Origin: Streptomyces sp. RKND-216
GTDB taxonomy: Bacteria > Actinomycetota > Actinomycetes > Streptomycetales > Streptomycetaceae
DNA length: 64,000 nucleotides
Direction of reading: 5' to 3'
Assembly: GCF_004795255.1 (NCBI RefSeq)
Contig: NZ_SSBQ01000002.1
Span: 3,057,501-3,121,500, forward strand
The translations under genes were made by a program, and so were the position numbers. The notes under the pieces were generated by a model. It did not search any database. It was not told the DNA's origin and saw only the letters and a program-made list of their open reading frames with translations. Shown here one piece after another: positions 8,201 through 61,072 of the stretch. Each line of letters begins with the position of its first letter. Position 1 is the first letter of the stretch.

Positions 8201-8998
8201 ATGGCGCCCCCGAAGCTCCGCAGCTACGACCCCCTCCGCGTCCGCAAGGCCCTCACAGCCCAGGTCGAGTCCGTCGCCGCCGCCGCGCACGCCCTCACCA
8301 CGGAGCAGTACGCGCAGCCCTCCGGGCTCCCCGGCTGGGACGTGCACCACCTGGTCGTGCACATCGCCGGGGAGATCGACGCGCTCCCGCGCCTCCTCGC
8401 GGAACCGGAACCGGATGTCGCCGCGCCCCAGGTGGACCTGTCCACCTGGGCGCTGTCCACCGCCACCCGGGCGAAGGACCTGGACGAGGCGACCCGCGCC
8501 GCCGCCGCCGCGTCGCGGGACGCCGCCGCCCGCGTCGACGAAGCTGTCGAGCAGCTCGAACCCGTGCTGGAGTCCGCCGTGCGCCCGGACCTGCTCCTCC
8601 CGCACGGGTTCGGCGCGATGCGCGCGCTGGACTTCACGGTGACCCGCCTCGTCGAGCTGGTGGTGCACACCGACGACCTGGTTCGCGCGACCGGCCACCG
8701 GGTGCCGCTGGACCGGCACGCCCTGGCCGCGACGGTCCGTCTGCTGGCGGACGCGCTCGCCGCGAAGGCGCCGGGCCGGGCGGTGGAGGTACGGGTGCCG
8801 CCGTTCGCGGTGACGCAGTGCGTGGAGGGCCCCCGGCACACCCGGGGCACGCCGTCCAACGTGGTGGAGACCGATCCGCTGACGTTCCTGCGGCTGGCGA
8901 CCGGCCGCACCACGTGGGAGGCGGCGCGGGCCCGCCGCGTGGTGCAGGCGAGCGGCGAGCGCGCCGACCTCTCGCCCCACCTTCCGGTGCTCGGCTAG
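8201..8998 (+). CDS. Maleylpyruvate isomerase / DinB-like family protein with sterol-carrier-type C-terminus
   Basis: 265 residues. The N-terminal half has the four-helix MDMPI/DinB pattern, with LPGWDVHHLVVHIAGEID supplying the first metal-ligand His, and TRLVELVVHTDDL the second region. The C-terminal part (RTTWEAARA near the end) resembles the sterol-carrier-like domain often fused in mycothiol-dependent enzymes. Streptomyces genomes usually carry a sterol-carrier-family gene just before purF, which fits the position. ATG at 8201 is preferred over GTG 8156 because the family starts near MAPPKLRSYDP. The substrate is unknown. Confidence 0.75.
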   Translation: MAPPKLRSYDPLRVRKALTAQVESVAAAAHALTTEQYAQPSGLPGWDVHHLVVHIAGEIDALPRLLAEPEPDVAAPQVDLSTWALSTATRAKDLDEATRAAAAASRDAAARVDEAVEQLEPVLESAVRPDLLLPHGFGAMRALDFTVTRLVELVVHTDDLVRATGHRVPLDRHALAATVRLLADALAAKAPGRAVEVRVPPFAVTQCVEGPRHTRGTPSNVVETDPLTFLRLATGRTTWEAARARRVVQASGERADLSPHLPVLG

Positions 8999-9038
8999 CT
9001 TCGGACGGGACCCGGGCCGGACGGGACCGCGCGCGCCC

Positions 9039-9060
9039 GGGTGTGGGCGGACCCACACCC
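9039..9060 (+). terminator. Hairpin between the MDMPI-like gene and purF
   Basis: GGGTGTGGG and CCCACACCC form perfect 9-bp arms around CGGA, 40 bases after the upstream stop and 30 bases before a possible purF -10 (TAGACT). It could be a terminator or a purF operator. Confidence 0.55.
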
Positions 9061-9103
9061 GCCGGATTCGGCCCGCTCCCCCGCCTGGCCTAGACTCGTG
9101 GAC

Positions 9104-10672
9104 GTGCCACGTGGTGACGGACGACTCAACCACGACCTGCTTCCCGGCGAGAAGGGCCCACAGGACGCATGCGGCGTCTTCGGGGTCTGGGCTCCGGGTG
9201 AGGAGGTCGCGAAGCTGACCTATTACGGGCTGTACGCGCTCCAGCACCGTGGACAGGAGTCCGCGGGCATCGCGGTGAGCAACGGCTCCCAGATCCTCGT
9301 CTTCAAGGACATGGGACTGGTCTCGCAGGTCTTCGACGAGACCTCCCTCGGCTCCCTCAGAGGGCATATCGCCGTGGGCCACGCCCGGTACTCGACGACC
9401 GGCGCGTCCGTGTGGGAGAACGCCCAGCCGACGTTCCGTGCCACCGCGCACGGCTCCATCGCGCTCGGCCACAACGGGAACCTGGTCAACACCGCCGAAC
9501 TGGCGGAGTTGGTCGCGAAGCTGGCCGACGGCCGAACGGGCGGCCGCGCCACCCAGGTCGCCGCCACCAACGACACCGACCTGGTCACCGCGCTGCTCGC
9601 GGGCCAGACCGATGACAACGGCGACCCCCTCACGGTCGAGCAGGCCGCCGGGCTGGTGCTGCCCAAGGTCCAGGGCGCGTTCTCGTTCTGCTTCATGGAC
9701 GAGCACACCCTTTACGCCGCCCGCGACCCGCAGGGCATCCGCCCGCTGGTCCTCGGGCGGCTGGAGCGGGGCTGGGTGGTCGCCTCCGAGACGGCCGCTC
9801 TGGACATCTGCGGCGCCTCGTTCATCCGCGAGGTCGAGCCCGGCGAGATGATCGCCGTGGATGAGGACGGATTGCGCTCCACACGCTTCGCGGATGCGAA
9901 GCCGAAGGGCTGTGTCTTCGAGTACGTGTACCTGGCCCGCCCCGACACCGACATCGCCGGCCGCAACGTTCACCTCTCCCGCGTGGAGATGGGCCGTCGA
10001 CTCGCCAAGGAGGCACCGGCCGACGCCGACCTGGTCATAGCGACCCCGGAGTCCGGCATTCCGGCCGCCATCGGCTACGCCGAGGCGAGCGGCATCCCCT
10101 ACGGCCGCGGCCTGGTCAAGAACTCCTACGTCGGCCGCACGTTCATCCAGCCCTCGCAGACCATCCGGCAGCTGGGCATCCGACTCAAGCTGAACCCGCT
10201 GAAGGAAGTCATCCGCGGCAAGCGCCTGGTCGTCGTGGACGACTCGATCGTCCGCGGGAACACGCAGCGGGCGCTGGTGCGGATGCTGCGCGAGGCGGGC
10301 GCCGCCGAGGTCCACGTACGGATCAGCAGCCCGCCCATCAAGTGGCCGTGCTTCTTCGGCATCGACTTCGCCAACCGCGCGGAGCTGATCGCCAACGGGC
10401 TCACCGTCGATGAGATCGGCACCTCGCTGGGCGCCGACTCGCTCGCGTACATCTCCATCGACGGCATGACCGAGGCGACGACGATCGCCAAGCCGAACCT
10501 GTGCCGGGCCTGCTTCGACGGCGAGTACCCGATGGACCTGCCCGACCCCGAGCTGCTGGGCAAGCACCTGCTGGAGTCCGACAGCGCCGCGGCCCCCGCG
10601 CGTACCGACTCGGACGGCGTGAACTCGATGACCGCCGGGGTCGGCGGCGCCGACGCGCTGCGCCGCCCGTGA
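9104..10672 (+). CDS. purF: Amidophosphoribosyltransferase PurF
   Basis: 522 residues. It catalyses the first committed step of purine synthesis, PRPP plus glutamine to phosphoribosylamine. A 22-residue leader ends ...KGPQDA and is followed by Cys23 (CGVFGVWAP), the N-terminal nucleophile exposed by propeptide cleavage. The class II glutaminase region contains ALQHRGQESAGIA and GHARYST. The PRTase motif VVVDDSIVRGNT is at 376-387. GTG at 9104 is chosen because the conserved sequence begins MPRGDGRLNHDLLPGEK; the open frame extends 21 codons upstream. purM follows after 73 bases. Confidence 0.98.
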   Translation: MPRGDGRLNHDLLPGEKGPQDACGVFGVWAPGEEVAKLTYYGLYALQHRGQESAGIAVSNGSQILVFKDMGLVSQVFDETSLGSLRGHIAVGHARYSTTGASVWENAQPTFRATAHGSIALGHNGNLVNTAELAELVAKLADGRTGGRATQVAATNDTDLVTALLAGQTDDNGDPLTVEQAAGLVLPKVQGAFSFCFMDEHTLYAARDPQGIRPLVLGRLERGWVVASETAALDICGASFIREVEPGEMIAVDEDGLRSTRFADAKPKGCVFEYVYLARPDTDIAGRNVHLSRVEMGRRLAKEAPADADLVIATPESGIPAAIGYAEASGIPYGRGLVKNSYVGRTFIQPSQTIRQLGIRLKLNPLKEVIRGKRLVVVDDSIVRGNTQRALVRMLREAGAAEVHVRISSPPIKWPCFFGIDFANRAELIANGLTVDEIGTSLGADSLAYISIDGMTEATTIAKPNLCRACFDGEYPMDLPDPELLGKHLLESDSAAAPARTDSDGVNSMTAGVGGADALRRP

Positions 10673-10745
10673 ACGCCGCCCCCGTCGGCCCGCGACCCTT
10701 CCAGACTCCGCACCCCTCACCCGAAACGAGCCGGGAGAACCCGTC

Positions 10746-11837
10746 ATGACCGCCGAGTCCACCGGTGCCGCCGGCGCCGAAGGCGCCAGCTACGCCGCCG
10801 CCGGCGTCGACATCGAAGCGGGCGACCGCGCCGTCGACCTGATGAAGGAGTGGGTGAAGAAGGCGCAGCGTCCGGAGTCGCTGGGCGGCCTAGGCGGCTT
10901 CGCCGGGCTCTTCGACGCCTCCGTCCTCAAGCGGTACGAGCGGCCGCTGCTCGCGTCCGCCACCGACGGCGTGGGCACCAAGGTCGACATCGCCCGGCGC
11001 ATGGACATCCACGACTCGATCGGCCACGACCTGGTGGCGATGGTGGTGGACGATCTCGTCGTGTGCGGCGCCGAGCCGCTGTTCATGACCGACTACATCT
11101 GCGTCGGCAAGGTGGACCCGCACCGGGTCTCGCAGATCGTCAAGGGCATCGCGGAGGGCTGTGTGCTGGCCGGCTGCGCGCTGGTCGGCGGGGAGACCGC
11201 AGAGCACCCGGGCCTGCTGGCCGAGGACGCGTACGACGTCGCGGGCGCGGGCACCGGCGTGGTCGAGGCGGACGCCCTACTGGGAGCCGATCGCATCCGT
11301 TCGGGGGACGCCGTCATCGCCATGGCGTCGTCCGGTCTTCACTCGAACGGGTACTCGCTCGTCCGCCATGTGCTTTTCGACCGTGCCGGCTGGTCCCTCG
11401 ACCGGCAGGTCGAGGACTTCGGGCGCACCCTCGGCGAGGAGCTGCTGGAGCCCACCAAGATCTACTCGCTGGACTGCCTGGCGCTGGCCCGCACCACCGA
11501 GGTGCATGCGTTCTCGCACGTCACCGGAGGCGGGCTGGCCGCCAACCTGGCCCGCGTGATCCCGGACGGGCTGCACGCCCGCGTCGACCGCGCGACCTGG
11601 ACGCCGGGCCCGGTGTTCGGCCTGGTCGGCGCACTGGGCGGAGTCGCGCGCGCGGAGCTGGAGAAGACGCTGAACATGGGCGTCGGTATGGTCGCCGTCG
11701 TCCCGCAGTCCGCGGTCGGTGCCACGTTGAGCACGCTGTCCGCGCGGGGTGTCGACGCCTGGGTGGCCGGCGAGGTGACCGAGCGCGGCGACCGCACCGA
11801 GGCCGTCACGCTGACCGGCGACCACCCCGGAGCCTGA
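10746..11837 (+). CDS. purM: Phosphoribosylformylglycinamidine cyclo-ligase PurM (AIR synthetase)
   Basis: 363 residues. It closes the imidazole ring, FGAM plus ATP to AIR. Conserved elements: SYAAAGVDIEAGD at the start, ATP-site SATDGVGTKVDIA, DDLVVCGAEPLFMTDYI, GGETAEHPG, ASSGLHSNGYSLVR and HVTGGGLAANLARV. The start follows GGGAGAACCCGTC. It is probably co-transcribed with purF (73-base gap without a hairpin). With purF, purS, purQ and purL, this window supplies steps 1, 4 and 5 of the pathway. Confidence 0.98.
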   Translation: MTAESTGAAGAEGASYAAAGVDIEAGDRAVDLMKEWVKKAQRPESLGGLGGFAGLFDASVLKRYERPLLASATDGVGTKVDIARRMDIHDSIGHDLVAMVVDDLVVCGAEPLFMTDYICVGKVDPHRVSQIVKGIAEGCVLAGCALVGGETAEHPGLLAEDAYDVAGAGTGVVEADALLGADRIRSGDAVIAMASSGLHSNGYSLVRHVLFDRAGWSLDRQVEDFGRTLGEELLEPTKIYSLDCLALARTTEVHAFSHVTGGGLAANLARVIPDGLHARVDRATWTPGPVFGLVGALGGVARAELEKTLNMGVGMVAVVPQSAVGATLSTLSARGVDAWVAGEVTERGDRTEAVTLTGDHPGA

Positions 11838-11892
11838 CGCCCCGGCGGGCCTGTCGCCAGCGGTGCGCCGCACGACGGCGGGCAGCACAGAA

Positions 11893-11918
11893 CCCGGTCC
11901 GGCGGAGGCCGGACCGGG
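11893..11918. terminator. Bidirectional terminator between purM and the DUF3073 gene
   Basis: CCCGGTCCGGC and GCCGGACCGGG, perfect 11-bp arms with a GGAG loop, lie between two convergent genes. Confidence 0.8.
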
Positions 11919-11982
11919 CGTGTGGCTCAGGGCCGTGACGCTCCGGGAGGACACCGGGCGCCGCTTGCCGCGCGCTTCGTGC

Positions 11983-48911: not shown

Positions 48912-50105
48912 CTAGCGCCGGCTCAGCAGGGCTTCCAGGAGGTCGGCGGCCCGTGTGGTGCCGCCCTCCGCGCGGGCGTCCTCGCGCAGCCGGGCGGACC
49001 GCCGGGCCACCTCGGGGTCGGAGGTGAGGGCGGTCAGCGCCGCGCGCAGCGACGCGGCGTTCGCGTCCGCGGTGTCGAGGCGGCGGGCCACGCCCAGTTC
49101 GACGAGGCGGTCCGCGTTCTGGAACTGCTCCGCGCCCTGCGGCACCGCGATCATCGGCACGCCCGTGAAGAGCCCTTCGCTGCTGCCGCCCATCCCGGCG
49201 TGCGTGACGAACGCGTCCGCCTGCCCCAGAATCGCCAACTGCGGTACCCAGGAGTGCACTTCGACGTTCGCCGGGATCTCGCCCAACTCGGACGGGTCGA
49301 CGTAGCGGCCGATCTGCAGCACCACGTGCCAGCCGGGAAGGCCGCCGAAGGCGGCCAGGCACTGCCGGTAGAACTCCGGCTGCCGGGTGTACGCCGAACC
49401 GAGCGACACGAGCAGCACGTTCTCGGCCCCGGCCGGACGGGTCCACGCACCCTGGTCGGCGCGGTCCCCGAAGCAGGGCCCGACGAAACTCACCACATCG
49501 GGGTCCACGAGGTCGGCGTGCGGCTGCATCGCCCGGGGGATCATGGCCAGCGCGCGGTCGGGCAGCCCGACGAAGGACGGGCCGTCCGTCGTGGTCGCGC
49601 CGGATGCCTCGGCCCAGGCGGAGACGCGGTCGAAGTACTCCTGCGCGCCGGGCAGTTGCAGCATCTGCTTCAGGATGGCCTGTTCCTCGTCGTGCCAGGC
49701 CACATACGTCGGCGAGAGCTGCACCGCGGGGCGGCCCTGCCGCTCGGCGAGGGCGCGGACGGCGTAGCCGCCGATGTCGTAGAGGTAGAGGTCGGCGGGA
49801 TCGTCCTCGTACACCGCCTCGATCTGCGGGAGCACGTGCATCGCGTCGTCCAGGAAGACGCTCATCGCGCCGACCGGGTCCTCCGGCCAGTCGTTGTCCG
49901 TCACCGGGAGCGTCGAGTCGAACGGCACGAACGTGGCACCGGTGCCGGTGACGAGGTCCGCGACGGCGTGCCCGTTGGCGTAGGTCACGCGGTGGCCGCG
50001 CGCCACCAGTTCGCGGATGATCTCCAGGCTCGGCAGCACGTGGCTGACGGCGGGCACACCGACCATGGCGATGTGGGCGCGCGGATGGGAGCGGGGCAGG
50101 TTCAT
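48912..50105 (-). CDS. Macrolide-type glycosyltransferase (OleD/OleI/Mgt family, GT1)
   Basis: 397 residues. The N-terminal acceptor domain opens AHIAMVGVPAVSHVLPSLEI, with the catalytic His22 (HxxP) and partner Asp110 (DLYLYDIGGY) in the positions of OleD. The C-terminal donor site has VEVHSWVPQLAILGQADAFV and THAGMGGSSEGLFTGVPM. In OleD the N-terminal signature reads AAHGHVNPS; here it is PAVSHVLPS, so an acceptor-loop change is present while the base is kept. Enzymes of this family glucosylate macrolide 2'-OH with UDP-glucose and inactivate the drug. The gene is preceded by a short leader ORF and a ~90-base gap. ATG at 50105 has GAGGAGAC upstream. Confidence 0.93.
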   Translation of the reverse strand: MNLPRSHPRAHIAMVGVPAVSHVLPSLEIIRELVARGHRVTYANGHAVADLVTGTGATFVPFDSTLPVTDNDWPEDPVGAMSVFLDDAMHVLPQIEAVYEDDPADLYLYDIGGYAVRALAERQGRPAVQLSPTYVAWHDEEQAILKQMLQLPGAQEYFDRVSAWAEASGATTTDGPSFVGLPDRALAMIPRAMQPHADLVDPDVVSFVGPCFGDRADQGAWTRPAGAENVLLVSLGSAYTRQPEFYRQCLAAFGGLPGWHVVLQIGRYVDPSELGEIPANVEVHSWVPQLAILGQADAFVTHAGMGGSSEGLFTGVPMIAVPQGAEQFQNADRLVELGVARRLDTADANAASLRAALTALTSDPEVARRSARLREDARAEGGTTRAADLLEALLSRR

Positions 50106-53603: not shown

Positions 53604-54062
53604 ATGCACGTCCACCGCGCCCGCCGTCCCCGCCGCAGGGCAGCCGCCGCCCACGTCCTCGCCGCTCTCGCCGTCGTCACGGCGGCGCCGATCCTCGCCC
53701 CGGCGCCAGCCGGGGCCGTACTGCCGCCGGTCAGCGACCACCTCTTGCTCACCGTCTCCGACTCCGGCCACCCGGCGCGCGACGGCCGGTTCGAGCTGTT
53801 CTGCCACCCCGCGGGCGGTGACCACCCGCGCGCGGAGGCGGCCTGCGCGCGGCTGGACGAGCTGACGGTGTGGGGCAGCGACCCGTTCGCCCCCGCTCCG
53901 GAGGGGACCCTGTGCACCAGCCTCTACGGCGGCCCGGCGACCGCGCACGTCGAGGGCATGTGGGCCGGGCGCCCGGTGAACGCGGACTTCGGTCGCGCCA
54001 CCGGCTGCGAGACCGCCCGCTGGGACGACCTCGTGCCTTTCCTCCCCCGCACCCGCCTCTGA
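53604..54062 (+). CDS. Subtilisin inhibitor-like (SSI family) secreted protein
   Basis: 152 residues. Signal peptide to about PAPAGA. The mature part has the SSI pattern with four cysteines in place: ELFCHPAGGDHPRAEAACAR, CTSLYGGPATAHVEGMWAGR and ATGCETARWDDL. SSI family members inhibit extracellular subtilisin-like proteases through a reactive loop after the third Cys. There SSI reads CPMVY and this protein reads CTSLY, giving Ser at the P1 place instead of the common Met or Lys. That may change or abolish target preference. ATG at 53604 has GGAG six bases upstream. Confidence 0.88.
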   Translation: MHVHRARRPRRRAAAAHVLAALAVVTAAPILAPAPAGAVLPPVSDHLLLTVSDSGHPARDGRFELFCHPAGGDHPRAEAACARLDELTVWGSDPFAPAPEGTLCTSLYGGPATAHVEGMWAGRPVNADFGRATGCETARWDDLVPFLPRTRL

Positions 54063-54737: not shown

Positions 54738-56195
54738 GTGACCCCCATCCTGTTCGTCTACGCCAAGGGCGGCCCGCCGCTGGAGTACGCGATACCGAGG
54801 ATCGCCGCCCACGCCGAGGTGCACGTGCTGGCGCTCGCGCCGCTGCCCGAGGTCACCGCCCCGACGTGGCGGCCGAGTTGCGCCTCGATCACCGAGGAGG
54901 CGCCGCGCGAGGGGGACGGACTGGTCGAGCTGATCTGCGAGCACGCGGAGCTGGTGGGGGCCGGCGCCGTGACGACGCTCTCCGAGTACGCCGTGGTGGC
55001 CGTCGCGCACGCCTGCCGCCGCCTCGGCCTGGCCGGTGCGGGCGGGAACGTCGAAGCCGCCCGCGACAAGCGACTGATGCGCCACCGCTGGCACCAGGCC
55101 GGCGTCCCGGTGCCCGGCTTCCAGCCGGTCCGCGAAGCCGCCGACATCGACGCGGCCTTCGACCGGCTGCGCCCGCCGCTGCTGCTCAAAGCCGCCTGGA
55201 GCGCGGGCTCCACCGCCCACGTGCGGGTCGAGGACCGCACGCAGGCCGAACGCGCCTGGCAGCTCGGCCGCGATGTCATGGCCGCGTCCGCGACCGAGGG
55301 GTACGCCGAACTCCACTCCGCCCGCGACGGCGTGAGCGACTTCCTCCTGGAGGAGATCGTCACCGGCCGCGCCGACGCCTGGTTCGGCACCGACAGCAAG
55401 CACGCCTGGGGCGACTACGTGTCCGTCGAGGGCATCGTCGCCGACGGCGTCTACCACCCGCTGTGCCTCACCGGCCGGATGCCGACCATCCCGCCGTTCA
55501 CCGAACGCGCCGGGATCGCCCCGGTGGCGCTGCCACCGGCGGCTCAGCGCCGCATCGAGGAGGTGTCGCGGGCCGCCGTCGACGCCCTCAACCTCGACAC
55601 CTGCGCCACCCACACCGAGATCAAGCTCGGCGCCGACGGTGAGATGTGGGTCATCGAGACCGCCGCCCGCTTCGGCGGCGTGATGACCACCCGCCAGGTC
55701 GAGGCGGTACACGGACTGGACATGCTGGGCATGCTGGTCCGCCAACTCCTCGGCGAGCCCGTGAACTACCCGGAGCGGATGCTGACCGGGGGCACCGGCG
55801 AAGGGCCGGGCGCCGCCGGCTCCCTGGTGGTGCTGGCCGCCGACCCGGAGGGCCGGCCGTGGCAGGACCTCCCGCCGTGGAACTTCGCCGCCGTCGACTG
55901 GCACGAACTGCTCAGCGAAGGCACCCGCATCGAACTGGTGCGGGAGGCCGCCCTGCCCGACGGCACACCGATGCCCGCGTACACCGAGGCCGGCGGCGCC
56001 AACGCGATGGCCGCTCTGTGCTTCCTGACCGCAGATTCCGAGCAGGCGCTGCTCGCCGACTGCGAGCACGTGATCGCCGCCCTGCCCCGCGCCCTGGCCG
56101 ACGCCGCCGCCCGCACGGGTGAGGACGAGGCGCTCCCGGGGCAGGGCACGACGGACCGCACGGACCGTACCGACGACGCGGAGGCCGACGTATGA
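54738..56195 (+). CDS. ATP-grasp carboxylate-amine ligase
   Basis: 485 residues. N-terminal Rossmann-like half (TPILFVYAKGGPPLEYAIPR...VTTLSEYAVVAVAHA), then the ATP-grasp module: PPLLLKAAWSAGSTAHVRVE, DFLLEEIVTGRADAWF, LDTCATHTEIKLGADGEMW, VIETAARFGGVMTTRQVEAV. It belongs with amino-acid/dipeptide ligases of natural-product pathways, which couple a carboxylate to an amine via acyl-phosphate. GTG at 54738 follows GAGGAG. The TGA overlaps the next ATG (ATGA), so it is coupled to the phosphotransferase-like protein. Substrates unknown. Confidence 0.9.
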   Translation: MTPILFVYAKGGPPLEYAIPRIAAHAEVHVLALAPLPEVTAPTWRPSCASITEEAPREGDGLVELICEHAELVGAGAVTTLSEYAVVAVAHACRRLGLAGAGGNVEAARDKRLMRHRWHQAGVPVPGFQPVREAADIDAAFDRLRPPLLLKAAWSAGSTAHVRVEDRTQAERAWQLGRDVMAASATEGYAELHSARDGVSDFLLEEIVTGRADAWFGTDSKHAWGDYVSVEGIVADGVYHPLCLTGRMPTIPPFTERAGIAPVALPPAAQRRIEEVSRAAVDALNLDTCATHTEIKLGADGEMWVIETAARFGGVMTTRQVEAVHGLDMLGMLVRQLLGEPVNYPERMLTGGTGEGPGAAGSLVVLAADPEGRPWQDLPPWNFAAVDWHELLSEGTRIELVREAALPDGTPMPAYTEAGGANAMAALCFLTADSEQALLADCEHVIAALPRALADAAARTGEDEALPGQGTTDRTDRTDDAEADV

Positions 56196-58276
56196 GCACC
56201 CCGAGCACCCGGACCAGCACCGGCACGGCGGCGACCCCCGACAACGCAGGCCCGGCGGCCGTCCCCGCCCAGGGCGGCGGTCCGTCCGGCGAGCACCGGC
56301 ACGGCGCCGTCCTCGGCGGCCTGCTCACGCTCCCGCTGTTCGAGCAGCTGTGCGGCGTACTCGGTGGCCACCCGTACGTGAAGGTCGTCGTGGACCGGCA
56401 CGAGGGCGTCTGGCACGTCCTCGACAGCTCCGTCCACTCCTTCCACGTCAACTACATCGCCACCGAAGTCCTGGGCATGACCCTGGACGAACTCGACGCC
56501 GACCTCGACGGGTTCAACCACTCCGTCTACCACGACCCCGAACGGCGCTTCCTGCTCGGCGTGCTGTCCCTGCACACCGGCGGCGACGCCGTCCCGCAAG
56601 ACCGGGCCGCGCAGCCGTTCATGGTCCTGGAGACCACCGAGGCCGACACCATGGGAGCCGCCCTGCTCACCGAGTTCTACACCGAGGTCCGCGCGCACCT
56701 CGACGAAGCGCTCGCCCTGGCCGTTAAACCCGCCAACCACGGCCAGGAGAACGCCGTCGCCGCCGTCCCCGAGACGGACCTGCCGCGTGCGCAGGGCCAC
56801 GAGCTGTTCTCCGCCGCGCCCTTCGTGCCGCTCACCCTCGGCACCGCGACCGGGCGGCTGCGCCGCTTCGCCGACGAGGACGACTACCGGGCCGCCCGCG
56901 CCGGCCTCGCCTGGTACGACATCGTGGCCATGCCCGTCGTCCCCGACGACATCCCGCGCATCGCCGGCCTCCTCAACGCGCAGCCCACCACGCCGCTCTC
57001 GCACACCAACATGCTCGCCGCGGGCTGGGGCGTGCCCAACGCCATCGTGCGCGACGCCCTGGACCGCATCGACGACGAGAAGCTCGACGGCGCCTGGGTC
57101 TCCTACGAGGTCACCACCGAGGGCGCCCGCCTGGAACGCACCGAGGAGCCCGCCGACCTCACCGAACCCGCCTGGCACACCCAGCGCATCCGCATCGACG
57201 CGCCCAGCCGCGACGACCTGCCGATCGTGCCGCTGGCCGCGCTGCGGACCGGCGACCGGCACGCGTACGGCACCAAGGCCGCCAACCTCGGCGAACTGCA
57301 CCACGTACTGCGGAACGGCTCCGCACGCCTCACCGGCTACTACGCGGTGCCGCGCCCGCCCCGCGCCGACCTCCTCGGCCACCTCGCCACCCGGCTCGGC
57401 GCGAGCGGCCAGGGCGAGGAACTCGCCGAAGCCGCGGACGGCTTCCTCGCCCGCCACGTCAAGGCGCCCGAGGGCGTCGCGGTGCCGTTCTCGCTGCAGC
57501 AGCGCTTCCTGGACTCCTCGCCCGCCATCCAGCAGAGCATCGGCAAGCTGAAGATGGCCCTCGAACTGGGTGCCATGGACGCCGTGGACGCCGTCTGCGT
57601 GCAGCTGCAGCACCTGGTGCGCACCACGCCCGTCCCCGACGACATGGCCCGCACGCTCGACGCCCACCTCGTACGCCACCTGGCCGGAGCCCAGCGCTTC
57701 GCGGTGCGGTCCTCGTCCAACGCCGAAGACCTGCCCGGCTTCTCCGCCGCCGGTATCTACGAGTCGCACACCCAGGTCACCGACCTGCCGGGCGCCCTGG
57801 ACGCGATCCGCCAGGTGTGGGCCTCACTGCTCTCCCCGCGCAGCGTGCGCCTGCGGCACGAGGCCGGCATCTCGCTGGACGACACCTACATGGGCGTCAT
57901 CGTGCAGCGCTACGAGCCGTCGCCGCTCGGCGGCGTGATGGTCACCTGCAACCCGACCAACCGCGCCGACTTCCGCAACGTCTACCTCAACTGCGCCCAC
58001 GGCTCCACGGCCGCGGTGGTGGACGGGTCGACGCTGCCCATGCAGTACCTCTACAACACGGTCGAGGGCGGCGGCCGCACGCTGTCGCTGGGCGCGGCGG
58101 ACACCGACCTGGACGTGGAGACCCGCGAACGGCTGGCCCGGCTCGCGCTCGCGGGACGCCTGCTCCAGTCCCACTTCGCGACGGACTACACCTTCGCGGC
58201 ACCGCTGGACGTCGAGTGGCTCCTCACGGCGGAGGGACGGCTGCACGTCCTGCAACTCCGTCCCTACAACGCGTAG
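56192..58276 (+). CDS. Phosphotransferase-like protein with N-terminal domain, His swivel and C-terminal PPDK-type ATP domain
   Basis: 694 residues. Residues ~40-200 form an unassigned N-terminal domain (PYVKVVVDRHEGVWHVLDSS, FHVNYIATEVLGMTLDELDA). Residues ~235-300 resemble the phosphohistidine domain of PEP-utilising enzymes, with candidate His271 in TPLSHTNMLAAGWGVPNAIV. Residues ~355-694 are a PPDK_N ATP-grasp-like domain: YGTKAANLGEL (Lys362), RFAVRSSSNAEDLPGFSAAG, GVIVQRYEPSPLGGVMVTCN and DVEWLL...LHVLQLRPYNA. No PEP-binding barrel. The order substrate-His-ATP is that of glucan water dikinases, opposite to PPDK and rifampin phosphotransferase. It likely phosphorylates a small molecule or sugar using ATP beta-phosphate. 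Confidence 0.8.
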   Translation: MSTPSTRTSTGTAATPDNAGPAAVPAQGGGPSGEHRHGAVLGGLLTLPLFEQLCGVLGGHPYVKVVVDRHEGVWHVLDSSVHSFHVNYIATEVLGMTLDELDADLDGFNHSVYHDPERRFLLGVLSLHTGGDAVPQDRAAQPFMVLETTEADTMGAALLTEFYTEVRAHLDEALALAVKPANHGQENAVAAVPETDLPRAQGHELFSAAPFVPLTLGTATGRLRRFADEDDYRAARAGLAWYDIVAMPVVPDDIPRIAGLLNAQPTTPLSHTNMLAAGWGVPNAIVRDALDRIDDEKLDGAWVSYEVTTEGARLERTEEPADLTEPAWHTQRIRIDAPSRDDLPIVPLAALRTGDRHAYGTKAANLGELHHVLRNGSARLTGYYAVPRPPRADLLGHLATRLGASGQGEELAEAADGFLARHVKAPEGVAVPFSLQQRFLDSSPAIQQSIGKLKMALELGAMDAVDAVCVQLQHLVRTTPVPDDMARTLDAHLVRHLAGAQRFAVRSSSNAEDLPGFSAAGIYESHTQVTDLPGALDAIRQVWASLLSPRSVRLRHEAGISLDDTYMGVIVQRYEPSPLGGVMVTCNPTNRADFRNVYLNCAHGSTAAVVDGSTLPMQYLYNTVEGGGRTLSLGAADTDLDVETRERLARLALAGRLLQSHFATDYTFAAPLDVEWLLTAEGRLHVLQLRPYNA

Positions 58277-58488
58277 TCCGGCCCGCCGGGGCGACGGTCC
58301 CCCGGGACGGAGCGCGTCGCCCGGTTCGGCGGGGGGGACGCCTGACGGCGTGCACCGCCGGGCCGGGCCGCGCCCGGCCGGTCCCGTGCGGGAGCGGCGG
58401 GGTGGCGCCGGTCTCCCGACGCCCGACGCCCGACGCCCCCGCGCACGCACCACCACACCACCGAACCCGAGGCCAGGTCCGTACCCCC

Positions 58489-59910
58489 ATGCCCCGCACC
58501 AGCAAGCCCCGCTTCACCTGGAAGTCCGCGCCGCCGGCGCAGGCGAAGCGCCTGATCCGGCTCAACAACGGCTTCCAGCTGCTCTTCAACCTCCTGTGGT
58601 GGATGCCGGTCTTCTACCAGTACCAGCGCGACGCCGGCCTTTCCGACGCCCAGATCTTCGCCATCCAGGGCGCGTACTACGTGTCCTTCTGCGTCCTGGA
58701 GATACCCACCGGCTTCCTCGCCGACCGGATCGGGCACCGGCGTGCCCTCCAGCTCGGCGCGGCCGTGATGGTGGCCGCGAACCTGATCCCCGTCGCGTCC
58801 CCGTCCGTGACCGGCTTCCTGCTGCACTTCCTCACCATCGCCACCGCGCGATCCCTCGTCTCGGGCGCCGCGAGCGCCTACCTGTACGAGTCGCTGCACG
58901 CCCGCGGCGCCGGCGAGCACTACGTGCAGGCCGAGGGCACCGCCCGTTCCATCGGCCTGTGGGCGAAGATCGGCTGCTGGCCGCTGGTCGGCGTGCTGAT
59001 GCAGATGCGCCAGGAACTGCCGTACGTGCTCACGGCCGTGTGCGCGCTCGGCGCGCTGGCGTGCGCGGTCGCCCTGCCACGCCTCGCCGCGCCCACATCT
59101 CCGCGCACGGCTCCCGCCTCTGCCGTGGCGACCGGACCCGCCGACGGCGACGGCGACGGGAAGGGCACCGGACTGCTGACCTCACTGTTCGGCGCCCTCG
59201 CCGTCTTCCGCCGCTCCTCCGCACTCGGCCCGCTCATGCTCCAGGGCGTCGCCCTCTTCACCCTCGCCCGCATCTGCCAGGTCAACCTGTTCCAGCCGCT
59301 GCTGATCGACAAGGACGTCCCGCTCACCCAGCACGGCGCGATCCTGTCCGCCATGACCATCGCCGAAGCGGTCGCCTCCGCCCGCCCCGAGTGGCTCCGG
59401 CGCCGACTCGCCGACACCACCTCCGTCACCGTCCTGAGCCTGGTCCTGGCCTTCACCCTCGCCGCGACCACCACGGCAGGGGGAGCCGGAACCGTCGTCT
59501 GGCTCTGCCTGTTCGCCGCCGTGACCGGCCTCGCCTTCCCCATCCAGCGCAACCTGGTCAACTCCGCGATCCCCGACTCCCGGCACCGCGCGACGCTGCT
59601 GTCCCTGGAGTCGATGCTGGACCGAGGCGTGTGCGCGCTGGCCGCCGTCGCGGTGGGCGCCTACCTCGCCGCCGACCGCCTCGACGCGCTGCTGGTGCAC
59701 TCCGCTCTGGGCACGTGCGTGCTGCTGGCCGCCGTCGCCCTGGTCCTGCGCCGCCTCCGCCGCCGTGGAGCCCCCGGCCTCGCCGGAAGGGCTTCTCTCC
59801 CCGCCCCGCGCGACGCCGCTCTGCGCGACGCCGCTCCGCGCGACGCCGCCCCGCGCGCCCCCGACGCAGGCGACTCCACTCCGCATGCTCCGGCCGACCG
59901 CCGGAAGTAG
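58489..59910 (+). CDS. MFS transporter
   Basis: 473 residues, about twelve hydrophobic helices. Motif A is GFLADRIGHRRALQLG in the second-third helix region; RLIRLNNGFQLLFNLLWWMP opens helix 1. A Pro/Gly/Asp loop (SAVATGPADGDGDGKGTG) separates the halves, and the last ~50 residues are a Pro/Ala/Asp low-complexity tail. The nearest type is drug or metabolite efflux. It follows the phosphotransferase-like gene after 212 bases, so it is in the same cassette. ATG at 58489 is supported by the sequence MPRTSKPRF and the following helix. Confidence 0.9.
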   Translation: MPRTSKPRFTWKSAPPAQAKRLIRLNNGFQLLFNLLWWMPVFYQYQRDAGLSDAQIFAIQGAYYVSFCVLEIPTGFLADRIGHRRALQLGAAVMVAANLIPVASPSVTGFLLHFLTIATARSLVSGAASAYLYESLHARGAGEHYVQAEGTARSIGLWAKIGCWPLVGVLMQMRQELPYVLTAVCALGALACAVALPRLAAPTSPRTAPASAVATGPADGDGDGKGTGLLTSLFGALAVFRRSSALGPLMLQGVALFTLARICQVNLFQPLLIDKDVPLTQHGAILSAMTIAEAVASARPEWLRRRLADTTSVTVLSLVLAFTLAATTTAGGAGTVVWLCLFAAVTGLAFPIQRNLVNSAIPDSRHRATLLSLESMLDRGVCALAAVAVGAYLAADRLDALLVHSALGTCVLLAAVALVLRRLRRRGAPGLAGRASLPAPRDAALRDAAPRDAAPRAPDAGDSTPHAPADRRK

Positions 59911-59951: not shown

Positions 59952-60977
59952 TCAGGCGTACCGGACGACGCTGGGACGTGGCGGCCAGGCCGTCGCGTCC
60001 AGCAGGCCCGCGCAGTAGGCGCGGGCCACCAGCGCGGGCCGCGACGGCGCGTCCAGCAGGCTGCGCAGCCGCCGCAAGTGGTAGTCCAGCGCCTGCCGGG
60101 ACAGCCCGAGTGCCGCCGCGATCGCCGTGTTCGGTTCCCCGGCGGCCAGCATCACCAGCACCCGCAGCTGCACCGGGCTCACCCGTGGCCGCCCGGCGAA
60201 CTCCGCCCCCACCGGCGCCAGTACGGCCACCACCGCGGCCGGCTCCCCGGCCCGCCGGACCAGCGACAGGTCCGCCCGTACGGGCCGCCCGCCCCCGGCC
60301 GTACGCAGCACCAGGACGCCGCCGCACCGTGCGAGCCGCCCCTCCGTCAACGCCCGCCACGCGCCGCCCGGCAACGCGCCGGACGCGTCCTCGACGTGCT
60401 CGGCCACGCGGTCGCCCTCCACGACGCCACGCGGCAGCCCCAGCAGCGCCGCCGCTGCCGCGTTCACCCGCCGCACCCGCCCGTCGAGCCCCAGCGTCAC
60501 CACCGCCAGCCCGGAACGCTCCCGCAGCGCGTGCAGTTCCTCCCCGGCCGCCGCCATCTCCTCCAGGGCCCGGTGGTGGTCGGTCACGTCCACGTAGATG
60601 CCGCCGACGCGGCAGGCCTGGCCGCGCAGCCCGTTCAGCGCGAACCGGTGCCCGACCGCCTGGCCGGGGGCGCCGCCCGCGTGCAGGAAGTGGATCACGT
60701 GCCGCACCGGCCGTCCCGACGTCAGCACCTCGCGGTCGAGTTCGCGTGCGGTTGCCGCGTCCTCGGGCGGGTCGACGTCCTCGACCGTCCGCCCGACCAC
60801 GGCCTCGGGCGCCCGCCCGTACAGGTGCGCGTAGGCGGCGTTCACCCACAGGTAGCGGCCGCGGTCGTCCCGCACGAAGGCAGCGGCCGGGGAGTACGCG
60901 GCCAGCGCCTCGAACCACTCCGCTGCCTCTTCCCCCACCGCCACACCCGTACCCCCATCACCACGTCGAGCCCTCAT
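59952..60977 (-). CDS. PAS-domain LuxR-type transcriptional regulator
   Basis: 341 residues. Two PAS domains (PAAAFVRDDRGRYLWVNAAY; LAVVTLGLDGRVRRVNAAAA, ~155 onward) and a C-terminal LuxR HTH (VSPVQLRVLVMLAAGEPNTA, IAAALGLSRQALDYHLRRLR). There is no receiver domain, so sensing is by the PAS domains. It is convergent with the MFS gene and divergent from the P-loop gene (95-base gap), a natural local regulator of the cassette. ATG at 60977 is used; an in-frame ATG lies upstream at 61040. Confidence 0.9.
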   Translation of the reverse strand: MRARRGDGGTGVAVGEEAAEWFEALAAYSPAAAFVRDDRGRYLWVNAAYAHLYGRAPEAVVGRTVEDVDPPEDAATARELDREVLTSGRPVRHVIHFLHAGGAPGQAVGHRFALNGLRGQACRVGGIYVDVTDHHRALEEMAAAGEELHALRERSGLAVVTLGLDGRVRRVNAAAAALLGLPRGVVEGDRVAEHVEDASGALPGGAWRALTEGRLARCGGVLVLRTAGGGRPVRADLSLVRRAGEPAAVVAVLAPVGAEFAGRPRVSPVQLRVLVMLAAGEPNTAIAAALGLSRQALDYHLRRLRSLLDAPSRPALVARAYCAGLLDATAWPPRPSVVRYA

Positions 60978-61072
60978 GCTGGACCACTCGGCCCCCGCGG
61001 TCACCACCCCCGCCGCGCCCGTATCGTGAGCCGCTCGCACCGGAACAGCCCGCAGCCCCTGAGGAGGCGCCC

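Follow-up and report, generated by a model that had tools for sequence, protein, structure and literature searches.

Our analysis of the window, a stretch of 64,000 nucleotides from Streptomyces sp. RKND-216, points to a self-contained pathway in which a ligase makes a dipeptide, a kinase N-phosphorylates it and an exporter releases the resulting phosphoramidate metalloprotease inhibitor; we put the probability of this reading at roughly 0.55. By forming an acyl phosphate, the BacD-like ligase would activate one amino acid for coupling to a second. In the kinase, the C-terminal domain would bind ATP and His271 would take the phosphoryl group, with ATP going to AMP and Pi in a chemistry modelled on rifampin phosphotransferase (RPH) and PEP synthase. 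The swivel would then turn to the N-terminal acceptor domain, where the dipeptide would receive the phosphate, most likely on its free alpha-amino group. The MFS protein would export this N-phosphodipeptide, which would inhibit metalloproteases as FMPI does, those of the thermolysin type (M4) or others; a PAS-LuxR protein would control expression. A preliminary description of this DNA had proposed phosphorylation joined to amide-bond formation and export; it stands in part, as the gene set and the predicted folds agree with it, while the chemistry is what we infer. The pathway probably is a relative of phosphoramidon biosynthesis, and the cassette may account for the origin of protease inhibitors that contain phosphate and have been known since the 1980s.

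The three genes of the trio described before are all present. The ligase gene (54738..56195, + strand) starts with a GTG at 54738 that is preceded by GAGGAGAGTC, with GAGGAG before the GTG. Its TGA overlaps the ATG of a phosphohistidine-swivel kinase gene of the dikinase type (56192..58276, +; 694 aa) in an ATGA at 56192, the same coupling as had been described. The domain of the MFS exporter (58489..59910, +; PF07690, E 2.5e-10) falls within the ORF 57817-59910, and the exporter start probably is the ATG at 58489, 212 bp past the kinase stop. Strong GC3 coding bias marks the ligase and kinase ORFs; the filter for this bias was not passed by the long MFS ORF, part of which is a non-coding lead-in. 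The trio is real, but the unit is larger than first described: a PAS-LuxR family regulator (59952..61040, − strand; PAS_4 and GerE domains) that had been overlooked belongs to it. A regulator homologue is adjacent in 77/80 named loci, which are the best 80 of 111 confirmed stretches; it lies upstream and divergent in 68 loci and downstream, as in the window, in 9. None of the four cassette genes contains a TTA codon.

Within the PPDK superfamily, the kinase is a variant with permuted domains. Its N-terminal acceptor domain (residues 38-206; 56303..56809, +), said before to be of unknown type, indeed gave no clear solved relative in the fold search. It is followed by a swivel (phosphohistidine) domain (about residues 210-318; 56819..57145, +) and by a C-terminal PPDK-type ATP domain (residues 341-694; 57212..58276, +), of which residues 411-692 match PF01326 (E 2.6e-35). 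AlphaFold2 models and fold searches back the assignment of both domains, with RPH as the closest solved relative of each by predicted fold. A swivel domain with a catalytic His is a feature of the PPDK/PEPS/RPH superfamily, and here the putative phosphohistidine is His271 (codon 57002..57004, +), at which a phosphohistidine-like domain had been placed before. None of the homologues compared lacks this residue: it is invariant in 93/93 streptomycete loci, a set that contains some genomes twice, and in 61/61 aligned homologues (the window protein and 60 of 240 listed proteins, taken from the best 120 of 883 and the best 120 of 594). The ATP-site residues are likewise invariant in the kinase homologues, the PPDK_N-type ATP-grasp domain keeping its conserved Lys/Arg/Glu/Gln/Arg.

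The order of acceptor, swivel and ATP domain is, as the preliminary description had it, unlike that of PPDK, PEP synthase and RPH, in that the ATP domain is C-terminal here. PEP synthase or PPDK proper, with its N-terminal ATP domain and a pyruvate-binding domain at the C-terminus, was rejected on this arrangement, on model scores far below cut-off and on PF01326 being the sole Pfam match; RPH proper was rejected on an NCBIfam equivalog score of 100.9 bits versus a cut-off of 999, matched at residues 421-691 only. In RPH, according to the extracts of PMC4844700, the ATP domain comes first and the catalytic His lies near the C-terminus.

A large, mostly metagenomic family (L050:8724-10898, P0126-P0245), whose named members include Actinomycetota, Thermoanaerobaculia and Microbacterium, is about 24% identical to the kinase of the window. 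In alignment it shares the N-terminal, swivel-His and ATP-domain columns, and Pfam recognises only its PPDK_N part. Another distant relative (L028 / L049, from actinobacterium G260) starts with a lipoprotein-like signal sequence, so the PPDK-type ATP domain of this protein may be located on the outer side of the membrane.

The ligase (PF13535) shares its core with the alanine-anticapsin ligase BacD (3wo1, E 6.9e-43), and the active-site motifs THTEIKL and AARF are aligned between the two. Its NF053745 score, 158 bits where the cut-off is 850, stays below the alanine-anticapsin equivalog level, and the flanking ORFs scanned held no bacilysin-type genes. Ligase and kinase are fused in proteins of 1105-1118 aa that contain both Pfam domains (P0019, P0021, P0023) and in a single open frame, 8519-11947, of Wenjunlia tyrosinilytica (L070). 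The genes run ligase-kinase-exporter in 80/80 named loci (best 80 of 111), kinase-exporter-ligase in one further locus (L048) and kinase-ligase-glycosyltransferase in a sister genus. Natural fusion and three gene orders argue for direct cooperation of ligase and kinase. In two Streptomyces loci (L141, L142), a paralogous ligase is part of another small conserved cluster together with an asparagine-synthase-like protein, an MFS protein and a methyltransferase-like gene, which probably represents a different dipeptide pathway.

The preliminary description had suggested looking for co-occurrence of the ligase and kinase genes in other actinobacteria. All 80 named loci fetched by kinase (best 80 of 111) hold ligase, kinase and exporter together, an association far beyond chance. 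The surroundings of the cassette are otherwise variable. The kinase gene is also present in two plasmid records (about 0.55 Mb each); in the one that was read, regulator, ligase and MFS genes accompany it. Plasmid copies and varied surroundings suggest that the unit can move. The kinase occurs in 46/392 sampled Streptomyces genomes (~12%, about 1 in 8), in 19/150 genomes and 4/17 genera of a family sample, and in 6/296 genomes of a phylum sample, three of these from the same genus and three being distant relatives. The 19-locus set, the 80 named loci and L143-L155 share some members (L031 = L060, L032 = L064, L041 = L089, L045 = L136, L047 = L130, L153 = L135 and L155 = L071, for example), so the locus sets are not independent.

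In the sister genus (g211), 7/8 carriers have a divergent kinase of 48-51% identity, and in 7/7 of these loci the arrangement is kinase, ligase and an EryCIII-type glycosyltransferase. The exporter query had no match within the fetched DNA of the seven, and the glycosyltransferase query had none in the other loci searched or in the window at E <= 1e-8; the eighth carrier (L150) has the exporter form. As a point against the phosphoramidate reading, inspection by eye of the first 110 residues of called genes in 4/7 loci revealed no dTDP-sugar genes next to the glycosyltransferase form. Ligase, kinase and glycosyltransferase are the parts needed for a P-N-linked dipeptide-deoxysugar such as phosphoramidon or talopeptin. 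As in phosphoramidon, the phosphate would receive a deoxysugar, here from the g211 glycosyltransferase that replaces the exporter.

The phosphoramidon/talopeptin (tal) pathway of Baulig et al. 2019 (Chem Sci 10:4486, cited in PMC9961378 and PMC12305651) reportedly employs an N-P-bond-forming kinase, TalE; an ATP-dependent kinase is said to phosphorylate the dipeptide before a glycosyltransferase acts. The g211 cassette has the same parts, whereas the window form has an exporter and is without a cassette glycosyltransferase. TalE could belong to another kinase family, which would count against our reading; the paper may also already report the present kinase family, which would lower the novelty of our findings.

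Known P-N dipeptides of Streptomyces are, in the extracts of PMC6429109, phosphoramidon, talopeptin and FMPI; the first two are inhibitors of thermolysin and other metalloproteinases, and FMPI too acts against metalloproteases. FMPI is phosphophenylalanylarginine from S. rishiriensis NK-122 (PMC6429109, extracts), and as an unglycosylated P-N dipeptide it would fall in the product class predicted for ligase, kinase and exporter. The sequenced strain S. rishiriensis NBRC 13407 (L086), which differs from the FMPI strain, carries the complete cassette of regulator, ligase, kinase and exporter. This match alone is weak because about 1/8 of genomes carry the kinase, giving chance odds near 1 in 8. 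A further precedent, the L-glutamine kinase of Campylobacter jejuni, is a member of the PPDK superfamily. It N-phosphorylates an amino acid directly with ATP in capsule biosynthesis (PMC6429109, extracts); unlike the proposed dipeptide target, its substrate is the glutamine amide, for the capsule phosphoramidate.

The cassette is linked to genes for the presumptive target. An M4 (thermolysin-family) gene lies within 6 kb in 11/80 named loci (best 80 of 111) versus 0.76 expected, a figure based on the 209 M4 genes counted in 30 of the 80 genomes; these 30 include all 12 loci with an M4 match in the fetched DNA, the twelfth (L125) having its gene 10.8 kb away. The window and 69/80 named loci, some of them on short contigs, had no M4 match within 6 kb. 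Near the loci a single M4 query at E <= 1e-8 was used and in the background a Pfam profile, so the near count may be low. The arrangements of the M4 genes, four in all, correspond to four kinase clades, and while the Poisson estimate ignores relatedness, counting four events in 30 independent contexts gives 2e-4.

The preliminary description also overlooked a secreted HAD-like partner encoded elsewhere in the same genome (G000:C2:1908638-1909222), 1.2 Mb from the cassette. With unlinked copies included, the HAD-like gene is found in 16/19 genomes with a full-length kinase versus 1/131 without (Fisher p 1.2e-17, relatedness ignored). It lies within 10 kb in 28/80 named loci (best 80 of 111), convergent with the exporter and within 0.4 kb of it in 27 of the 28 and 5.3 kb away in one. 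A genome search covering 50 of the 52 loci without a nearby copy (L137 and L138 left out) found it elsewhere in 14/50. The resulting total of 42/78 named carriers (28 near and 14 elsewhere) is lower than in the first sample and makes the HAD-like protein a frequent, not required companion; S. rishiriensis NBRC 13407 has no such gene at E <= 1e-10. The companion (P0311) also occurs in Streptomyces kanamyceticus, the species of the reported phosphoramidate JU-2 according to the extracts of PMC6429109.

Of the 120 HAD-like homologues listed among 276, 119 have a hydrophobic, signal-like N-terminus by a simple hydropathy rule, and in all 120 motif I reads DLGET, with the second catalytic Asp replaced by Gly. 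Motif IV looks degraded as well, so phosphatase activity of the protein is not assured. Pfam finds no domain in it at E <= 0.01, NCBIfam gives weak HAD-type matches only (best E 0.0059), and a few homologues are annotated "HAD family hydrolase" in the source records.

This companion is central to the foremost rival explanation, in which the phosphate is a temporary mask. With the ligase product toxic or bioactive, the kinase would protect the cell by phosphorylating this dipeptide, the MFS protein would export the masked compound and the secreted HAD-like protein would unmask it outside, a logic known from streptomycin 6-phosphate. The co-occurrence of the HAD-like gene with the cassette, its place beside the exporter and the signal-like N-termini all fit this scheme. 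However, only 42/78 of the named carriers examined have the gene, the altered motifs and the missing Pfam domain sit poorly with an unmasking phosphatase, and the M4 and glycosyltransferase links are left unexplained. We consider a mask unlikely, and rank it ahead of O-phosphorylation, a PigC/RedH-like condensation and glucan phosphorylation, in this order. The phosphoramidate reading in turn has no role for the HAD-like partner, which could hydrolyse the product.

RPH transfers its phosphate to a hydroxyl (PMC4844700, extracts), and with this enzyme as the closest solved fold relative of both domains, the cassette kinase might target the hydroxyl of a Ser/Thr/Tyr-like residue in the ligase product. 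The phosphate would then be kept and no P-N inhibitor formed; neither the glycosyltransferase replacement nor the M4 linkage is predicted by this scheme, which we rate somewhat below the mask. PigC and RedH are prodigiosin ligases with the same ATP-domain type and a domain order that differs from the cassette kinase. Weak ATP-domain matches to the RedH and PigC models (54.3 and 49.7 bits) suggest a second condensing enzyme, which would activate a carbonyl or carboxylate by phosphorylation and add a third building block; the scores are far under the cut-offs of 1350 and 1300 and cover part of the ATP domain only, making this option improbable. Polysaccharide phosphorylation, the preliminary analogy to glucan water dikinase (GWD) taken literally, is hardly credible: GWD has a swivel domain and then a C-terminal ATP domain, an order that the cassette kinase shares, but the latter lacks the CBM45 starch-binding domains (Pfam found PF01326 only, and no CBM45 or other domain at E <= 10), and its partner is an amino-acid ligase, fused to it in some genomes.

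More tentatively, and with the odds against it, the phosphoramidate reading may be widened to a widespread GWD-ordered kinase family, its acceptor domain lacking any known solved relative, that forms P-N bonds on ligase-made dipeptides. Its inhibitor repertoire would be sugar-free in Streptomyces and glycosylated in the sister genus, the secreted HAD-like protein would process or switch off the inhibitor outside, and the target M4 proteases would have been captured repeatedly beside the cassette. If the phosphoramidate reading is right, a candidate gene cluster would be at hand for FMPI, on which PMC6429109 cites papers of 1982-83, and the permuted dikinase would offer a means of forming P-N bonds on peptides. 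About 1/8 of the sampled Streptomyces genomes could then be mined for metalloprotease inhibitors made by a two-enzyme pathway, and the co-occurrence of the HAD-like gene would suggest that extracellular proteolysis is controlled in a way not recognised so far. A literature search, with many journals outside its scope, found no paper on this cassette or on an FMPI gene cluster.

Outside the cassette, the window contains a macrolide-type (Mgt-like) glycosyltransferase gene at 48912-50105 (− strand), which has no match to the sister-genus cassette glycosyltransferase at E <= 1e-8. An SSI (subtilisin-inhibitor-like) gene at 53604-54062 (+) precedes the ligase, which has the same orientation, by about 0.7 kb, so that a protein protease inhibitor adjoins a suspected small-molecule one. 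Among the loci searched, an SSI gene near the cassette recurs only in the closest relative of the window's genome, Streptomycetaceae bacterium MP113-05.
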